The notes below the pieces were generated by a model. The model searched no databases, had not been told where the DNA came from, and saw only the letters and a list, made by a program, of their open reading frames with translations. 64,000 nucleotides of DNA from contig DATCMI010000001.1 of NCBI GenBank assembly GCA_036563485.1, positions 952,938 to 1,016,937 of the forward strand, given 5' to 3'. This document shows positions 23,989-63,204 of this stretch, one piece after another. This DNA is from Sphingomicrobium sp. GTDB lineage: Bacteria; Pseudomonadota; Alphaproteobacteria; Sphingomonadales; Sphingomonadaceae. The position numbers and the translations under genes are program-made. How positions within the stretch are numbered: the first letter of the stretch is position 1; every line of letters begins with the position of its first letter.

Positions 23989-24513
23989 TCAGGGATATTG
24001 AACCGTGACCGTGAAGCTGCCGAGATAGCTGCCGTCCGCCTGTCCCGCCGCGACGTTGAGACGCGCGCCGACCGCGAAATCGAACGTCTGGGTGATCGGG
24101 AAGCGGCGGTTGCTCGGCCCGTCGAGGGTGAAATTGGTGACCGTCATCGTTTCCGTGCCGCCGACGCGCGTCAGGGTGACCGGCTGCTGCGGGAGACGGA
24201 TGAGGACGATGGAATTGCGCGAACCGGTGGTGGTGAAGCTCGCCGGCTGCTGCGCCGATCCGACGACAGTGAGGGGCCCGGTGGTTGTCATCGTGCCGCT
24301 TACCGGGTCGATCACGGCAGTGCCTGCACCCGCGACGATGATCGAGCCGAAGTCGAGGTCGGCCGTCCTCACCACGGTCAATGGCCGGAGGATCGTCGTA
24401 GTGCCGGTCGCGTCGGTCGTTGCAGCGACACTCTGTGCGCTCGCCGTGCTTACGAGCAGCATTGGGCATGCTGCCGCGCCAAGGGCGAGAACAAGGGAAA
24501 GCTGCCGTTTCAT
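23989..24513 (-). CDS. DUF4402 domain exported protein (orphan copy)
   Basis: 174 aa. A signal peptide (cleavage at STASA-Q, near residue 27) precedes a beta-rich DUF4402 domain: TTTILRPLTVVRTADLDFGSIIV at the N-terminal edge and GSYLGSFTVTVQYP at the end. It is the same family as the three subunit-like genes at 61.4-63.2 kb and shares their ILRPLTLV-type start and penultimate Tyr. The usher and chaperone are 33 kb away, so it may be an additional subunit. A palindromic GGTTAACC lies just upstream. Confidence 0.85.
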   Translation of the reverse strand: MKRQLSLVLALGAAACPMLLVSTASAQSVAATTDATGTTTILRPLTVVRTADLDFGSIIVAGAGTAVIDPVSGTMTTTGPLTVVGSAQQPASFTTTGSRNSIVLIRLPQQPVTLTRVGGTETMTVTNFTLDGPSNRRFPITQTFDFAVGARLNVAAGQADGSYLGSFTVTVQYP

Positions 24514-57729: not shown

Positions 57730-60432
57730 CTAGCGCAGCGAGCCGGGCCCCGCGCCACTAGTCGCTTGCGCGATTTGCGCGACGGGCGTCGGCTTGACGC
57801 TTCCAAGCCTCACGACCGACGTCTTCGCATCGATGGTGAACTGGATCCCCAGCTCGGGGCGGATTTTCGCGGCCGTCGCGGAAGCCGCCGCGACCCGCAC
57901 GCTGTAATTGCCGTATGCCACCCGTTCGAACAGGAAGAAGCCGTCGTAGTCGGTGCGCGCAGTCGCGATGACTTTTCCGGTCGCGTCGACCAGCTCCAGG
58001 TCGACGCCCTCGAACCCGGTGCCGCCGCTCTTGACCAAGGCTCCCTCGACGTCGCCGCCACCGACCAGCGCGATCTGCACCTCGGCAGGAATTCCGGGCC
58101 GCGGAACGACGACCTGGAGCGCCTTTTGGGGCACGAGCATCGGGTCTGACAGGCTGGTGAGGTCGACGCCGACGGCGACCGCCTGGTAGGCGGTAAGCCC
58201 ACCGACGATCGTCGTGCCGTCGCGCCCTGTTGCGCGCTCCGCCTGATGCGTACCGGTGGTAATCAGCGCGCCTTTCTCCCCCGGTTCGCCGGCATCGCGA
58301 ACGCCATTGTCGTTGAGGTCGCGGTACACGACGGCGCGGACTTCGCCGGCCTGCGCAAGCGGCTGGCGCGACAAGTGAAATCCGTGGCGCGGATCGAGCG
58401 AAAAGCTCAAGTTGAGGCCGACGGCGACTGAACCGTCGGTCGCGGCTTCGCCGGTCAAGGCGATGGCCATGCTGTCGAGCCGCCGGATGTGGGAGACGCT
58501 CGCCCGCGCGCGGCGGGCCGGGCCATCGTAGGCCAGAGCCCCTTCCCAATTCACTTTGTCGCTTGCAGCCCAGTAGGCCTGGAGTTCGGCGGTGCGGAAG
58601 CGCGCCTCGGGCGACACGTCGAATGCCGTCGCGCCGCGAACGCGGACGCCGCCGCCGAAATAGCCGCTGCCGATCAGGTTCAGGCTGGTCGTAGCTGGCA
58701 GGCTCTTGCCGCCGGGCACGAGTTGCTTGCTGTACTGGACGCCGGCGGCAAGGTTGAAGCGGTTTAGGCTAGCGGACAGGCGCGTCGCGGCTTCGAGCGT
58801 CTTGCTACCGTCCGTGCGATCGCTGAGATGCACGTCAGCGTGCGCCGGAAGCACGGCTCGCCCGATTTTCAGCGGCGCGTCGAGCGCGAGCCGATAGTCC
58901 CTGAGGCTCCGGACCGCGCCGCCCTGAAAATGAAAATCTTTTGCAATGAGCGCCTGGGCATTGACGTTGACGCCGCCCAGCTTGCCGATCAGCTGGGCGC
59001 GCGCGGCGATGCCGCCGCCGGACTCCCGCGCCGCGCTGACCTCCGCCATCGCGAGCCCGATCGAACGCCGGACCGACCCTTCAACGAAGGTCACGCGCTG
59101 ATCGTCGATGAGCATTACCCGTGCGAGCGCGGCGACCGACGTGCGCGTGTCGATCCCGTGCTCGAGTGCAACAGTGGCCTGGCTCTTCGCCACGCCTGCC
59201 CGGTCGGGCGGCTTCTCGATCATGAAGATGTCGTGCCCGGGCTGGCTGACTCCCGCCCAATACCAGGTCTTGCCGGGCGGCGCATTGTCCTGCCCGACAT
59301 TGACCAGCTCTTCGCGGGTCCGGGTCTGCCCCTGAGGTCCGTAGAGAACGATCCTGATCCGGTTCTCACCGTAAAGAAGCTGAACATCTTCAAAGGCATA
59401 GCGCTGCCCTGACCCGGCCTTCGCGAAGGCGAGAAGCTCATCGTTGCGGTAAAGCTCGGCCTCCCAGCCGGCGGGCAGGTCGCCCTCGAAGCGAGTGCGG
59501 TCGAACGCCGTCTGGGTTGTCAGTGGCCGGTTGGTGATGACGGCGCCGCGGCCGAGCGCGGCCGAGCCGGTCAGCTTGCTGTCGAAGCCTTCGACATCGC
59601 CGGCGCCGAAGTGGGTCGCTTTGGCAGGGCCCAGCAATTGCGCTTCCGGATCCGAGCGATAGGCGCGCAGGCGCACATTGGTCGGCATCCCCTTCTGGTT
59701 GGTCGAAACCTGCGCGTCATACGACAGGCGCGCAATCTCGCCAGCCGCGTACACCGAGGACTGGCGGTCCACGCGAATTCCGTCCTTGGCTCGGTAGGTG
59801 ACGCCCGCGCTAACCACGAAGTCGAGCGCGGGAGCGCGCCACATGCGATAAGGGACCCTAACCTGCGGCAGAGCCGCAAGATCGAACTTCGCCTTGCCGA
59901 TGCGTGCGGCGCGGGCTTGCCGCTCCATCGCCAGCTCCACCGGCAGCTTTTCCGCCGCTTCAAGAAGCAGGACGGACCCGGCGGTCATCGGCTTTACTGA
60001 TATCCCGAACCAGCGTGAGAGGGCGCTCGCCTGAACGCACCAGCCTTCAGGCGTTTCGCGGATCGTCCCGCCGGCGATCGGCTCGCTTCTGGAGCCGAAT
60101 GTCGCAGTCTGCGCCGCGAGGTCGATTGAAATCCGGTTGGCTTCCTTGAACGCCCAACCGCTCGCCCGTTTCGTACCCAGGTCAACGCGGACCGGCACGT
60201 CCAGGGTTGTCAAAAAGTCGCCTAAGACGACACATGTGCCTTCGGGCGCCTGATAGGCGCGCACACCATCGCCAAGCCGAAGCTGGCGAATGGTAACCTC
60301 GAGCAGGAACTGGTCGTCGGGGTCCGCGGTCCAGGCGGGCGCTTGGGCGGAAGGCGCAGAAGCGCCGACGCCGCCGGCGCACAGCGCCACCAGCATCGCG
60401 GCCTTCCGCCACCATTTCCGGCCGCCCAGCAC
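57730..60432 (-). CDS. Outer-membrane usher-like protein of a DUF4402 fibre locus
   Basis: 900 aa, GTG start with AGGA 8 nt upstream. A signal peptide (to about residue 30) precedes an N-terminal domain that binds or positions other parts, then about 500 residues of alternating beta strands (residues ~200-730) rich in Gly/Ala/aromatics as in outer-membrane barrels. It resembles divergent ushers of the CS1/CFA alternate type (about 860 aa). The C-terminal ~180 residues carry two Ig-like or CarboxypepD-type modules, one with VYRDLNDNGVRDAGEPG, a Ca2+-loop-like SdrD-B motif. The call rests on architecture and on the chaperone and subunit genes next to it. Confidence 0.72.
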   Translation of the reverse strand: MLGGRKWWRKAAMLVALCAGGVGASAPSAQAPAWTADPDDQFLLEVTIRQLRLGDGVRAYQAPEGTCVVLGDFLTTLDVPVRVDLGTKRASGWAFKEANRISIDLAAQTATFGSRSEPIAGGTIRETPEGWCVQASALSRWFGISVKPMTAGSVLLLEAAEKLPVELAMERQARAARIGKAKFDLAALPQVRVPYRMWRAPALDFVVSAGVTYRAKDGIRVDRQSSVYAAGEIARLSYDAQVSTNQKGMPTNVRLRAYRSDPEAQLLGPAKATHFGAGDVEGFDSKLTGSAALGRGAVITNRPLTTQTAFDRTRFEGDLPAGWEAELYRNDELLAFAKAGSGQRYAFEDVQLLYGENRIRIVLYGPQGQTRTREELVNVGQDNAPPGKTWYWAGVSQPGHDIFMIEKPPDRAGVAKSQATVALEHGIDTRTSVAALARVMLIDDQRVTFVEGSVRRSIGLAMAEVSAARESGGGIAARAQLIGKLGGVNVNAQALIAKDFHFQGGAVRSLRDYRLALDAPLKIGRAVLPAHADVHLSDRTDGSKTLEAATRLSASLNRFNLAAGVQYSKQLVPGGKSLPATTSLNLIGSGYFGGGVRVRGATAFDVSPEARFRTAELQAYWAASDKVNWEGALAYDGPARRARASVSHIRRLDSMAIALTGEAATDGSVAVGLNLSFSLDPRHGFHLSRQPLAQAGEVRAVVYRDLNDNGVRDAGEPGEKGALITTGTHQAERATGRDGTTIVGGLTAYQAVAVGVDLTSLSDPMLVPQKALQVVVPRPGIPAEVQIALVGGGDVEGALVKSGGTGFEGVDLELVDATGKVIATARTDYDGFFLFERVAYGNYSVRVAAASATAAKIRPELGIQFTIDAKTSVVRLGSVKPTPVAQIAQATSGAGPGSLR

Positions 60433-60465
60433 GGCTTGGATCCTGTTTCGGTCCCGTCCTTGCCT

Positions 60466-61293
60466 CTAGCGCAGCACCGCCTGGGTCTCGGCGATCTTCT
60501 CGGAACCGTCGTTGAAGGTCTCCAGATATTGGACCGTCACGGGGCCGGAGACATCGCCTTTGAACTCGGTGCTGACGGGGATGGTCACCTTGCGCTGGCC
60601 AACGTCGGTGTAGACGGCGACGGCCCGCTGGATGGCCACCGGATCCTTGACGCCGGCTTTGAGCACCCGGACCTCGCCAAAGGTCGAGCGGGTGCCCGTC
60701 CGGCTGAGCTCGAGCGCGATGGCCGGCTTGCCATCATCCTTTTGAAGCTTGACGTCCGTGATCGCCGCCTTGGCCTGGAGGTTGCCGAGGCGGACGATGA
60801 CCGGGATGGTGACGCCGTAAACGGGGATAAGCTGCAGGCGCAGTCCCTTGGCCTGCTCGTCTTCCGGCTTGGCGACGGCGGTCGGCGGCGGAACCGCGCG
60901 GAACAGCAGGTGCACTCGATATTCGCCGTCGGGCAGGCCCGCCGGAGGACGCGCGGAGATGCGGATCGCCTGCGGCTGGTTCGGCGGCAGAGTCACGCGG
61001 CGCGGGGCATAGACGATCATGTCGGCCGCGGCCTTTTCCTGCGGCGTCGGCTCCGTCACCTCGACGAGATTGCCGTCCGGAGTCATCCGGCGGAATTCGA
61101 CCGATACGCGATAGGTCGCCGGCTCGGTCCCGATATTGTTGAGAACGACTTCGGCGCCCTTGCGTCCGTCCAGCACCAGTCGCGTCGGCGCGACCAGAAG
61201 GTCACCGACGCCGGCATGGGCAATGGAGGAGGAGCTGACGATGGCTGCGCCGGCGATCGCCGCGCGGACGATCTTGTTGTTAAGAAAAGGCAT
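60466..61293 (-). CDS. PapD-like periplasmic fimbrial chaperone
   Basis: 275 aa with signal peptide (cleavage near SIAHA-G, residue 28). The first Ig-like domain shows DLLVAPTRLVLDGRKGAEVVLNNIGTEPATYRVSVE and the motif IVYAPRRVTLPPNQPQAIRIS typical of PapD-like chaperones (edge strand, then the Pro-rich G1 end). The second domain contains a VKLQKDDGKPAIALELSRTG segment. It should capture DUF4402 subunits in the periplasm and pass them to the usher encoded 33 bp downstream. Confidence 0.85.
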   Translation of the reverse strand: MPFLNNKIVRAAIAGAAIVSSSSIAHAGVGDLLVAPTRLVLDGRKGAEVVLNNIGTEPATYRVSVEFRRMTPDGNLVEVTEPTPQEKAAADMIVYAPRRVTLPPNQPQAIRISARPPAGLPDGEYRVHLLFRAVPPPTAVAKPEDEQAKGLRLQLIPVYGVTIPVIVRLGNLQAKAAITDVKLQKDDGKPAIALELSRTGTRSTFGEVRVLKAGVKDPVAIQRAVAVYTDVGQRKVTIPVSTEFKGDVSGPVTVQYLETFNDGSEKIAETQAVLR

Positions 61294-61353
61294 TCCGGAA
61301 GGTCCCCACTTTCGCTCCCGCGCAGGGAGCTACCGAGGGGATGTTTTGCTCCA

Positions 61354-61378
61354 GAATGGTTTATTTTCGGTCAACCAT
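61354..61378. repeat. 25-bp direct repeat, copy A
   Basis: GAATGGTTTATTTTCGGTC followed by AACCAT, which differs from copy B at 61915-61939 at one position. It contains the dyad ATGGTT/AACCAT. Copy A lies just downstream of the 61384-61896 gene and about 60-85 bp before the chaperone ATG. Confidence 0.8.
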
Positions 61379-61383
61379 AACGC

Positions 61384-61896
61384 TCATTGGTATTCGGCAA
61401 TGACGTCGAAGGTGCCCGTATAGTCGCCGCCCGCCGTCGTCGAACTGAGGGTGATGGACCCTCCGAGCTCGAAATTGTTTCCCGGCGCGCCCGACGAGGT
61501 CAGTGCGACCGAGGCCGGAGCGTCGACGACCATCTTCAGCGTTTGCGAAGGATCGGTGCTGTTGACGAGAGTCACATCCGGCGCGGTGATGCGGACCACC
61601 ATCTTGTTCGTGCCCGTCACATTGTATTGGGCAACCCTGGTTGCGCCCGAACAGATCACATTCGCATTTGCGCAGGTGAGCGCGCCGGTCCGTGACAGTG
61701 ACACCGTCGCTCCCGTCCAGCTGCCTGGCTTCAAGGTGATGGTGCCGAGATCGAGGTTCTGAAGCGACGTGAGAGTCAGCGGCTTGATGATATTTGCCTG
61801 AACCGCGGCGCTCTGGGTTGCTGCACGCGCGGGCTCGGCGCGCTGCCCGGCAAGGCACGCGACAGCGATCAGCAGCAATCGGGCATGGCTGGCCAT
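61384..61896 (-). CDS. DUF4402 domain exported subunit-like protein
   Basis: 170 aa. Signal peptide, then AVQANIIKPLTLTSLQNLDLGTITL at the N-terminal edge of the DUF4402 beta domain and ending GGDYTGTFDVIAEYQ. Two cysteines (TCANANVICSG) are spaced as in its paralogue at 62018. Penultimate Tyr matches classical pilins. The ATG at 61896 was chosen; a TTG at 61935 lies inside direct repeat copy B. The gene is flanked by the two 25-bp repeats and precedes the chaperone. Confidence 0.88.
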   Translation of the reverse strand: MASHARLLLIAVACLAGQRAEPARAATQSAAVQANIIKPLTLTSLQNLDLGTITLKPGSWTGATVSLSRTGALTCANANVICSGATRVAQYNVTGTNKMVVRITAPDVTLVNSTDPSQTLKMVVDAPASVALTSSGAPGNNFELGGSITLSSTTAGGDYTGTFDVIAEYQ

Positions 61897-61914
61897 GGTC
61901 CCGGTTTTCCACCG

Positions 61915-61939
61915 GAATGGTTTATTTTCCGTCAACCAT
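61915..61939. repeat. 25-bp direct repeat, copy B
   Basis: GAATGGTTTATTTTCCGTC followed by AACCAT, with the same ATGGTT/AACCAT dyad as copy A. It ends 19 bp before the ATG of the 61384-61896 gene, so it could be its promoter or operator. On the minus strand TTGACG is contained in it. Confidence 0.8.
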
Positions 61940-61950
61940 GAACGGCAACG

Positions 61951-61977
61951 AAAAAGGGGCCGCGGTGAGGCGGCCCC
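61951..61977 (-). terminator. Intrinsic terminator after the 62018-62551 DUF4402 gene
   Basis: On the minus strand GGGGCCGC (61977-61970), a 6-nt loop, GCGGCCCC (61963-61956) and TTTTT (61955-61951): a perfect 8-bp stem with U-tract, 40 bp after the stop codon. It makes the 62018 gene monocistronic or limits read-through to the downstream genes. Confidence 0.9.
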
Positions 61978-62017
61978 TTCGAACGTCGTGCGGGCAGAAC
62001 CCGCCGATGGTCACGGC

Positions 62018-62551
62018 TTATTGGTAGGCGGCAGTGACGTTGAAATTGCCGGTGTAGACGCCGTCCGGAGTCGTGTTGGCAACCGTGACTTCGCCGCCGA
62101 TGTTGAAGGTGCCGGCGCCGGTCGTCGCATCCAGGGTGACAGTCGTCGGGTAATATGCAGCGCCGCCCGAGTCAGTCGTCTTAAGCGTCAGCGTCACGGA
62201 ACCTGGACCAGTCATGGTGACGTCCGGAGCGCTGATCGTGACCACCTGGCCCTTCGTGCCGGTGAGGTCGTACTTCGCGACGGTCGTCGTGCCCGAGCAG
62301 GTGACATTGGCCGCACAGGTGCGGACATTCCCGCTGCTCAGCTTGACGGTTGCACTGTAGGTGCCCGTGCCGGAAAGCACGATGTCGCCGAGGTTGAGGT
62401 TCGCGCTGCTGACGAGCGTCAGCGGACGAAGGATGCGGACCTTGGCCGTAGCGTCGGTGCCGGAGGTCACGGCAGCAGCAGCCGGGGTCGCAGCAAAGGC
62501 CAGCGCCGCGGCCGTCGCGGCGAGCGACGTCATGCGAAGAAGCTTGTTCAT
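62018..62551 (-). CDS. DUF4402 domain exported protein, candidate major subunit
   Basis: 177 aa. Signal peptide (cleavage at TPAAA-A region), then ATAKVRILRPLTLVSSANLNLGDIVL at the N-terminal edge, a cysteine pair (RTCAANVTCSG) and the end GVYTGNFNVTAAYQ. With its own strong terminator and a GGGG-type ribosome site before the ATG, it looks like the highly expressed major subunit, though expression is not known. Most similar to the 61384 paralogue. Confidence 0.9.
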   Translation of the reverse strand: MNKLLRMTSLAATAAALAFAATPAAAAVTSGTDATAKVRILRPLTLVSSANLNLGDIVLSGTGTYSATVKLSSGNVRTCAANVTCSGTTTVAKYDLTGTKGQVVTISAPDVTMTGPGSVTLTLKTTDSGGAAYYPTTVTLDATTGAGTFNIGGEVTVANTTPDGVYTGNFNVTAAYQ

Positions 62552-62679
62552 CTTATATTCCCCACTGGTTCAGTTCGCGGCTCCCGGCACTGAGCGCGGT
62601 TTACCGTGACGACGCTATTAACCCTGCCCGCTTACATCTTCCCTCAAGGGCATGGTTAATGGCGGCTTAGGGATTGGCC

Positions 62680-63204
62680 TCACTGATATTCGACGGTGAT
62701 CGGCATCTCGCCGCGATAATTGCCCTCGGCGTCACCGCTGATTGTCACCCGGCCGCCGAAGCGAAAGCTGAGCTTGCCGGCGGAGTCGAGCTTGGGCAGC
62801 GCCGGCAGGTCGGTCATCACTTCGTCGACGCTGATCCGCCCGCCGCTGGTCGAATAAAGGTCGATGCGGCGCGGCATCTCGACACGGACCGCACGCGACG
62901 GTTCGCCGCGGACCACTGCACTGCCGACCATCGCGCGTGCGCTCATCAAGGCCACCGCGCCCTCGACGCGGTTGCTGCCGTCGGGCCGGACGACCGCTGC
63001 GCCACTGCCGGCTGCAGCAAGAACCAGGCGGTCGAAGTTGAGGTTCGTCTCGATCTCGAGCGTCAGCCCATCCGCATCGCTGCCGCCGTCGCGAGTCGTA
63101 CTCGGCTGGTCGCACAGGCGGCATTGCGCCGGCGCCGGAGCCACGCTTCCGCCGCCGGCGGCAAGTGCCGCAACCATAAGGGCAAGGAGTCTCGAAGCGC
63201 CCAT
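62680..63204 (-). CDS. Divergent DUF4402-like exported protein with CxxC
   Basis: 174 aa. Signal peptide (cleavage near APAQ), then CRLCDQPS at the mature N-terminus and a DGLTLEIETNLNFDRLVLAA block corresponding to the RPLTLV...NLDFG edge of its paralogues. The end NYRGEMPITVEYQ keeps the penultimate Tyr. It lacks the RPLTLV motif and the internal cysteine pair, so it may be a specialised (tip, base or regulatory) subunit. First gene of the minus-strand locus. Confidence 0.75.
   Translation of the reverse strand: MGASRLLALMVAALAAGGGSVAPAPAQCRLCDQPSTTRDGGSDADGLTLEIETNLNFDRLVLAAAGSGAAVVRPDGSNRVEGAVALMSARAMVGSAVVRGEPSRAVRVEMPRRIDLYSTSGGRISVDEVMTDLPALPKLDSAGKLSFRFGGRVTISGDAEGNYRGEMPITVEYQ

Follow-up and report, generated by a model that had tools for sequence, protein, structure and literature searches.

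The subject of this analysis is a block of five genes in a 64,000-nucleotide stretch of a Sphingomicrobium genome (GenBank assembly GCA_036563485.1, contig DATCMI010000001.1; hereafter the window), which in all likelihood represents an operon of the chaperone-usher superfamily, with DUF4402 proteins as pilins, a periplasmic chaperone and an outer-membrane usher that would join the subunits by donor-strand exchange. A previous sequence-only reading had described here a minus-strand block with an usher-sized protein, a PapD-like chaperone and three DUF4402 proteins, and this description is borne out by the open reading frames (ORFs) and by Pfam. Indeed, all five ORFs are found on the minus strand between 57730 and 63204, in the transcription order d3, d2, d1, chaperone, usher-like gene. 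Residue numbers refer to the proteins of the window, whose genome is labelled G000.

62680..63204, minus strand: d3, encoded first in the block; DUF4402 protein and candidate tip, with CRLC close to the mature N-terminus (Pfam, 74.5 bits).
62018..62551, minus strand: d2, DUF4402 protein, candidate polymerising pilin (Pfam, 62.9 bits; AlphaFold2, pLDDT 87.5; Foldseek).
61384..61935, minus strand: d1, DUF4402 protein, candidate polymerising pilin (Pfam, 60.6 bits; sequence).
60466..61293, minus strand: putative periplasmic PapD-like chaperone, 275 aa, with R126 and P97 (PapD_N, E 9e-4; profile matches).
57730..60432, minus strand: putative outer-membrane usher, 900 aa, with plug and C-terminal domain recognisable in alignment (hhalign; Foldseek).

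For d1, the in-frame ATG at 61896 is more probably the start than the TTG at 61935.

By profile comparison, the 900-aa protein shows homology with known ushers along most of its sequence. In particular, 17 family ushers aligned by hhalign with five archaic ushers at 98.5% (E 1.6e-15) over 687 columns, spanning profile columns 43-861, while the reversed control gave 9.1 and the column-shuffled one 0.1 in three trials. Four of the archaic references stand beside SCPU pilins and the fifth comes from L093, an archaic-like operon of the window's own genome. Four classical ushers were matched at 92.5% (reversed 0.8), consistent with the earlier remark that the protein is not a close classical PapC/FimD, and three of the five archaic ushers still gave 86-92% when compared singly with a family profile from which L075 was excluded. 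In the printed part of the alignment the plug falls at about residues 316-380 and the C-terminal domain is reached, the N-terminal part being weak. Foldseek placed FimD/PapC in its first ten rows (E 3e-14 to 8e-11, 752-1007 columns) when queried with an AlphaFold2 model that was built from nine sequences and is poor (pLDDT 55.1, pTM 0.28); since the TM-scores of this model to ushers are 0.13-0.19, the ranking supports local order only. The usher role that had been proposed for the protein is thus upheld by the profile match and by these ten rows. The barrel and plug, which the sequence-only reading had wished to see in a predicted structure, are answered only indirectly, by the profile match to ushers, as the 900-aa model has a mean pLDDT of 55.

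Other forms of this usher were also met. The excluded L075 (L075:9838-18000, genome G137) has its usher match within a 2721-aa open frame that leaves the stretch and has no Pfam match at E 0.01, perhaps a giant fusion or a frameshift. L143, L144, L145, L147, L148 and L151 have ushers of a related type, 1184-1328 aa long; the SdrD_B domain of L151 lies at 1237-1286, so the extra sequence sits before it. An usher with a SPOR domain (PF05036) is encoded at L070:5855-9430, in a genome from a different family within the phylum, and the Pseudoalteromonas operon described below (L113) has SPOR proteins on its flanks.

The chaperone matches PapD_N at 19.6 bits, under the 23-bit cut-off (E 9e-4), and the PapD-like role assigned to it earlier is supported by profiles: its family aligns with three archaic chaperones at 97.3% (reversed and shuffled controls at most 1.2), with four classical ones at 94.6% (reversed 0.2) and with EcpE at 92.7%. 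P97 shares its column with a proline in all six reference chaperones and is conserved in 58 of 59 family chaperones; the superfamily proline is invariant according to PMC4654587. A PapD-like chaperone with what appears to be the superfamily proline is, as in the superfamily, encoded beside the usher. R126, an arginine in 57 of the 59 distinct family chaperones, aligns in the same column as EcpB R109 (precursor numbering) and EcpE R115, and EcpB R109 would be Arg89 if a signal peptide of 20 residues, by our own count, is cleaved. According to the same source, a conserved Arg89 in strand F1 defines non-classical, that is archaic or alternative, chaperones (PMC4654587). R126 provides the arginine of alternative chaperones in the present family. 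R198 and Y228, each kept in 55 of the 59 proteins, might form the second-domain part of the carboxylate anchor. R38 shares its column with the arginine of FimC and is retained in 57 of 59, whereas the lysine of FimC SRIKLYYRP, Lys112, has P164 in its column, a proline in 58 of 59. Of the classical anchor pair of FimC, Arg and Lys, the chaperone thus keeps the arginine and lacks the lysine.

All three small proteins of the block exceed the Pfam DUF4402 cut-off of 25.2 bits. The AlphaFold2 model of d2 has a pLDDT of 87.5, with the first 30 residues poor, and its Foldseek rows 1-20 are all chaperone-usher pilins (Caf1, CsuA/B, FimG, CfaB and CS17; best E 6e-4), Caf1 chains occupying rows 1-12. 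In VIA, the model resembled FimG with Z 7.3 (rmsd 3.3, 112 aligned) and CsuA/B with Z 7.2 (rmsd 9.0, 124 aligned), all Z values for d2 being below 8, a range in which the VIA note urges caution, and unrelated chains reaching up to Z 6.0. The comparison of DUF4402 with pilin folds, which the sequence-only reading had named as a test, therefore came out in favour of a pilin-like protein, as a fold resemblance of a predicted structure. In addition, the last strand of the DUF4402 profile, built from 105 of 114 proteins (dropped were four longer than 300 aa, two duplicates from an overlapping locus and three doubtful ORFs), aligned over 30 columns with seven pilins of archaic loci (83.9%), with controls of at most 0.2.

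The N-termini of the subunits bear on how they would be joined. After rows lacking the anchor or enough N-terminus were dropped together with identical stretches, 100 sequences remained. Hydrophobic alternation was stronger than in shuffled versions of the same N-terminus for 62 of the 68 operon subunits and for all 14 orphans, a sequence pattern counted over related and not independent sequences, and for only eight of the 18 N-termini of the CxxC type, a group defined by the motif CRLC, CSLC or CQLC. Such a result agrees with polymerising subunits that have a donor strand and with a first subunit that, like a tip, has none. The polymerising subunits thus appear to carry the N-terminal donor strand, CxxC-type DUF4402 subunits may be tips, and d3 most probably sits at the tip as it has the CxxC motif and seems to lack a donor strand. 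In L149 and L150, the protein directly after the usher (325 aa and 330 aa, respectively) matches the DUF4402 profile, in L149 with residues 193-324; these proteins resemble the two-domain tip adhesins CupE6 and CsuE, which consist of two Ig-like folds according to PMC10104325. DUF4402 is very probably the fibre subunit of what looks like a surface-fibre assembly machine.

The arrangement of the genes is conserved. Nine Sphingomonas loci hold usher relatives of 51-72% identity, and in all eight with a full usher ORF a chaperone gene and at least one DUF4402 gene lie ahead of the usher gene (L008, truncated by the end of its contig, has one subunit; the sequence of the ninth locus, L012, starts inside the usher). 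A further set of 40 loci, picked for an usher or DUF4402 match, has DUF4402, chaperone and usher genes together in 40 of 40, with the chaperone gene always adjacent to the usher gene and all genes on one strand in 39 (the subunits of L144 are divergent); L114 and L115 of this set are identical with L009 and L011. Since the arrangement is repeated in the eight full Sphingomonas loci and in these 40, it is not due to chance. In 12 loci with more distant ushers the chaperone gene again adjoins the usher gene without exception, and DUF4402-like genes lie upstream of it in 10.

Co-occurrence across genomes, a check proposed by the sequence-only reading, was also found. Order-wide, a profile scan of 196 genomes detected the usher in 54, DUF4402 in 53 and both in 52 (Fisher p 6.6e-44, kinship uncorrected), so that within the order DUF4402 predicts the presence of the usher. 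The usher stands alone in G133 and G194, the latter matching by a C-terminal stretch only, and DUF4402 alone in G083, at E 6e-4 and under the family cut-off. Among the 15 genomes listed for the window's genus, 12 have both and three neither. A phylum sample of 398 genomes gave 21 usher profile matches, several of them short stretches in the second half only, and 14 DUF4402 matches, 11 of which are over the cut-off. In ten of these 11 genomes the usher is matched as well; in the remaining one, G437, the DUF4402 genes stand next to a chaperone gene and a divergent usher gene (E 1e-4; L134). The earlier attribution of the system to sphingomonads proved too narrow, as related operons are present in Polaromonas sp. 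JS666, on a conjugative plasmid and between IS6 transposases, and on a Pseudoalteromonas xiamenensis replicon. In both records the usher is called carboxypeptidase regulatory-like (or -like regulatory), and the Polaromonas chaperone is annotated as a fimbria/pilus periplasmic chaperone. Among seven plasmid records with an usher relative, four bear the carboxypeptidase regulatory-like (or -like regulatory) name, one is SdrD B-like, one hypothetical and one unannotated; the usher label appears in none.

On this basis, the following route can be proposed. Export signals, read by eye, suggest that Sec would export the DUF4402 proteins as incomplete immunoglobulin-like pilins, whose fold the chaperone would complete while its conserved arginine holds the pilin C-terminus. 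The 900-aa usher would then receive chaperone-subunit complexes at the outer membrane and polymerise the subunits via donor-strand exchange, the alternating N-terminal extension of each incoming subunit filling the groove of the preceding one, with the first-encoded d3 at the fibre tip. Such a fibre might serve adhesion or biofilm formation.

The window's genome, one contig of 2.33 Mb, has a single usher copy and five DUF4402 matches, two of which lie outside the block.

23989..24513 of the window, minus strand: orphan DUF4402 protein, not part of the operon, whose N-terminus resembles a donor strand (98.4 bits).
G000:C1:87080-87499, plus strand: second DUF4402 gene outside the block (profile match).

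The orphan at 23989-24513 could possibly be assembled in trans by the usher of the operon. Tandem DUF4402 pairs also occur in L062, L063, L094, L096 and L099, where chaperone or usher genes are not in the stretch fetched; these genomes also hold the operon.

The region upstream of the operon offers a lead on its control. The CtrA half-site is given as TTAACCAT in PMC3692519, and the pattern TTAACCNT, in either orientation, was found in 19 of 39 stretches of 360 bases, each spanning the start of the first subunit gene detected. Shuffled stretches, which keep single-base content only, gave 0.89 on average and 3 at most; over loci L114-L153 as a whole the rate is 0.054 per 360 bases, or about 2 of 39. 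The 39 stretches comprise 38 of the 40 loci (L134 and L144 were excluded by the thresholds of the script) and the window, whose own upstream stretch carries TTAACCCT. Full sites (TTAA-N7-TTAA) were present in none of the 39 and near-full sites in four (shuffled stretches: mean 0.82, maximum 5). Clear enrichment is confined to the half-site pattern, which may be taken as a lead. A scan for sigma-70-type promoters found none against 0.5 expected, terminator-like sites were at chance level (4 against 4.8), and no Rfam family scored above its threshold. A 36-nt repeat, 89% identical, lies ahead of the chaperone gene and of d1 (window 61343-61378 and 61904-61939) and carries an ATGGTT...AACCAT inverted repeat.

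Several results weigh against the assignment to the chaperone-usher superfamily. Pfam gives the 900-aa protein no usher family, with no PF00577 match at E 10; its AlphaFold2 model is poor and has low TM-scores to ushers, and Sdr-type Gram-positive surface proteins come next in its Foldseek list, at E 1e-10. Two of the five archaic ushers, taken singly, reach 9.7 and 0.3 in hhalign, and single FimD, EcpC, FimC and EcpB sequences give at most 10.9%. A sequence search of the PDB with chaperone and usher returned nothing beyond chance except for the usher's C-terminal Sdr-like region, and profile-based searches of the PDB with all three families (chaperone, usher, DUF4402) gave no useful result. 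The R126 column of the three archaic reference chaperones holds a gap, an alanine and a threonine but no arginine, and R198 and Y228 are not in the columns of EcpB's second-domain anchor pair. As regards the subunits, only two Foldseek rows for d2 reach E 0.001, the VIA scores have the limits given above, and hhalign gives 6.1 for classical pilins and 1.8 for EcpA against DUF4402. Finally, G452, G519 and G552 have an usher and no DUF4402 by Pfam at E 0.001; sub-cut-off DUF4402 matches in G522, G232 and G282 occur without an usher; and among the 12 distant loci, L071 has no DUF4402-like gene and L072 only a downstream one, while the matches in L069 (0.0024) and L076 (0.006) are weak.

These points have to be set against other explanations of the block. 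The sole Pfam domains of the 900-aa protein are SdrD_B and its relatives, close to the C-terminus, and the names of the plasmid relatives point the same way, but the reading that annotation implies, of an outer-membrane or surface protein unrelated to ushers and bearing Sdr or carboxypeptidase-regulatory domains, is highly improbable: the usher match extends over 687 columns where the controls failed, ushers fill Foldseek rows 1-10, and the chaperone gene stands beside it in all 12 distant and all 40 further loci. The Pfam-only reading of the protein as an Sdr-type adhesin was rejected on the profile match and the alignment to ushers. If a chaperone-usher system is accepted, its product could be a thin capsule-like coat in the style of the Caf1/F1 antigen instead of a pilus, as the sequence-only reading had also allowed and as the Caf1 chains at the head of the d2 Foldseek list would suggest. 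This is rather unlikely, as FimG and CsuA/B head the VIA list, the fold cannot separate a coat from a pilus, and a tipped pilus would go well with the presence of several different subunits in each operon and with the two-domain proteins found in L149 and L150.

The place of the operon within the superfamily is less settled. One possibility, which we consider somewhat doubtful, is that an archaic system of the ordinary kind (Csu/CupE-like) has drifted and is set apart by sequence divergence alone; the archaic ushers as best profile match (98.5%), the archaic resemblance of the last pilin strand (83.9%) and the gene order subunits-chaperone-usher all agree with this. Against it, archaic and classical ushers match each other at 99.9% (score 268) and archaic ushers match this family at 98.5% (score 139), so the family is further from both than they are from each other; moreover, its subunits are DUF4402 and not SCPU proteins, and the window's genome has the separate archaic-like operon L093, though the subunits of L093 also miss SCPU (PF05229), which has no match in G000. 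L093 (G000:C1:397525-402389; L093:5526-10390) encodes a subunit, a chaperone (PapD_N 35.8 bits), an usher (PF00577 25.5 bits against a cut-off of 27.1) and a 334-aa protein; the usher of the archaic yardstick L087 scores 109.5 bits with PF00577. It is tentatively proposed, with less than even confidence, that the operon belongs to a distinct fourth chaperone-usher lineage, defined by DUF4402 pilins, a one-domain CxxC tip without a donor strand, accessory DUF4402 subunits acting in trans, transcription tied to the cell cycle by CtrA, and a gammaproteobacterial branch that couples the usher to the septal wall via a SPOR domain.

Assignment of the block to the chaperone-usher superfamily would provide a bench-testable role for DUF4402, add a lineage that Pfam misses and whose usher is not labelled as such in the seven plasmid relatives, and open sphingomonad surface attachment to genetics. 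The literature consulted, which lacks most subscription papers and all preprints, names neither DUF4402 nor PF14352, nor DUF4402 with an usher, and does not combine chaperone-usher with carboxypeptidase regulatory-like; among papers on chaperone-usher systems and Sphingomonas, none concerns the present system by its title or the start of its abstract.

Compared with the known systems, the operon shares with the archaic ones (Csu, CupE) an usher related over 687 columns, a chaperone family matched at 97.3%, the last pilin strand at 83.9% and donor-strand-like N-termini. It differs from them in that its subunits match DUF4402 and not the SCPU family of archaic pilins, an imperfect criterion because the archaic-like L093 is also without an SCPU match, and in that its usher is unmatched by PF00577 and has an SdrD_B-type C-terminal domain. 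The alternative system (ECP) is different in its usher and pilin (EcpC 1.2% and EcpA 1.8%, as single sequences) and has in common the chaperone arginine column with EcpB R109 and EcpE R115, together with the 92.7% match of EcpE. From the classical systems (Fim, Pap, Caf1) the operon departs in the lysine column of FimC, which is proline in this chaperone family, and it shares with them ushers and chaperones matched at 92.5% and 94.6%, respectively, and a predicted d2 fold that resembles Caf1 and FimG.

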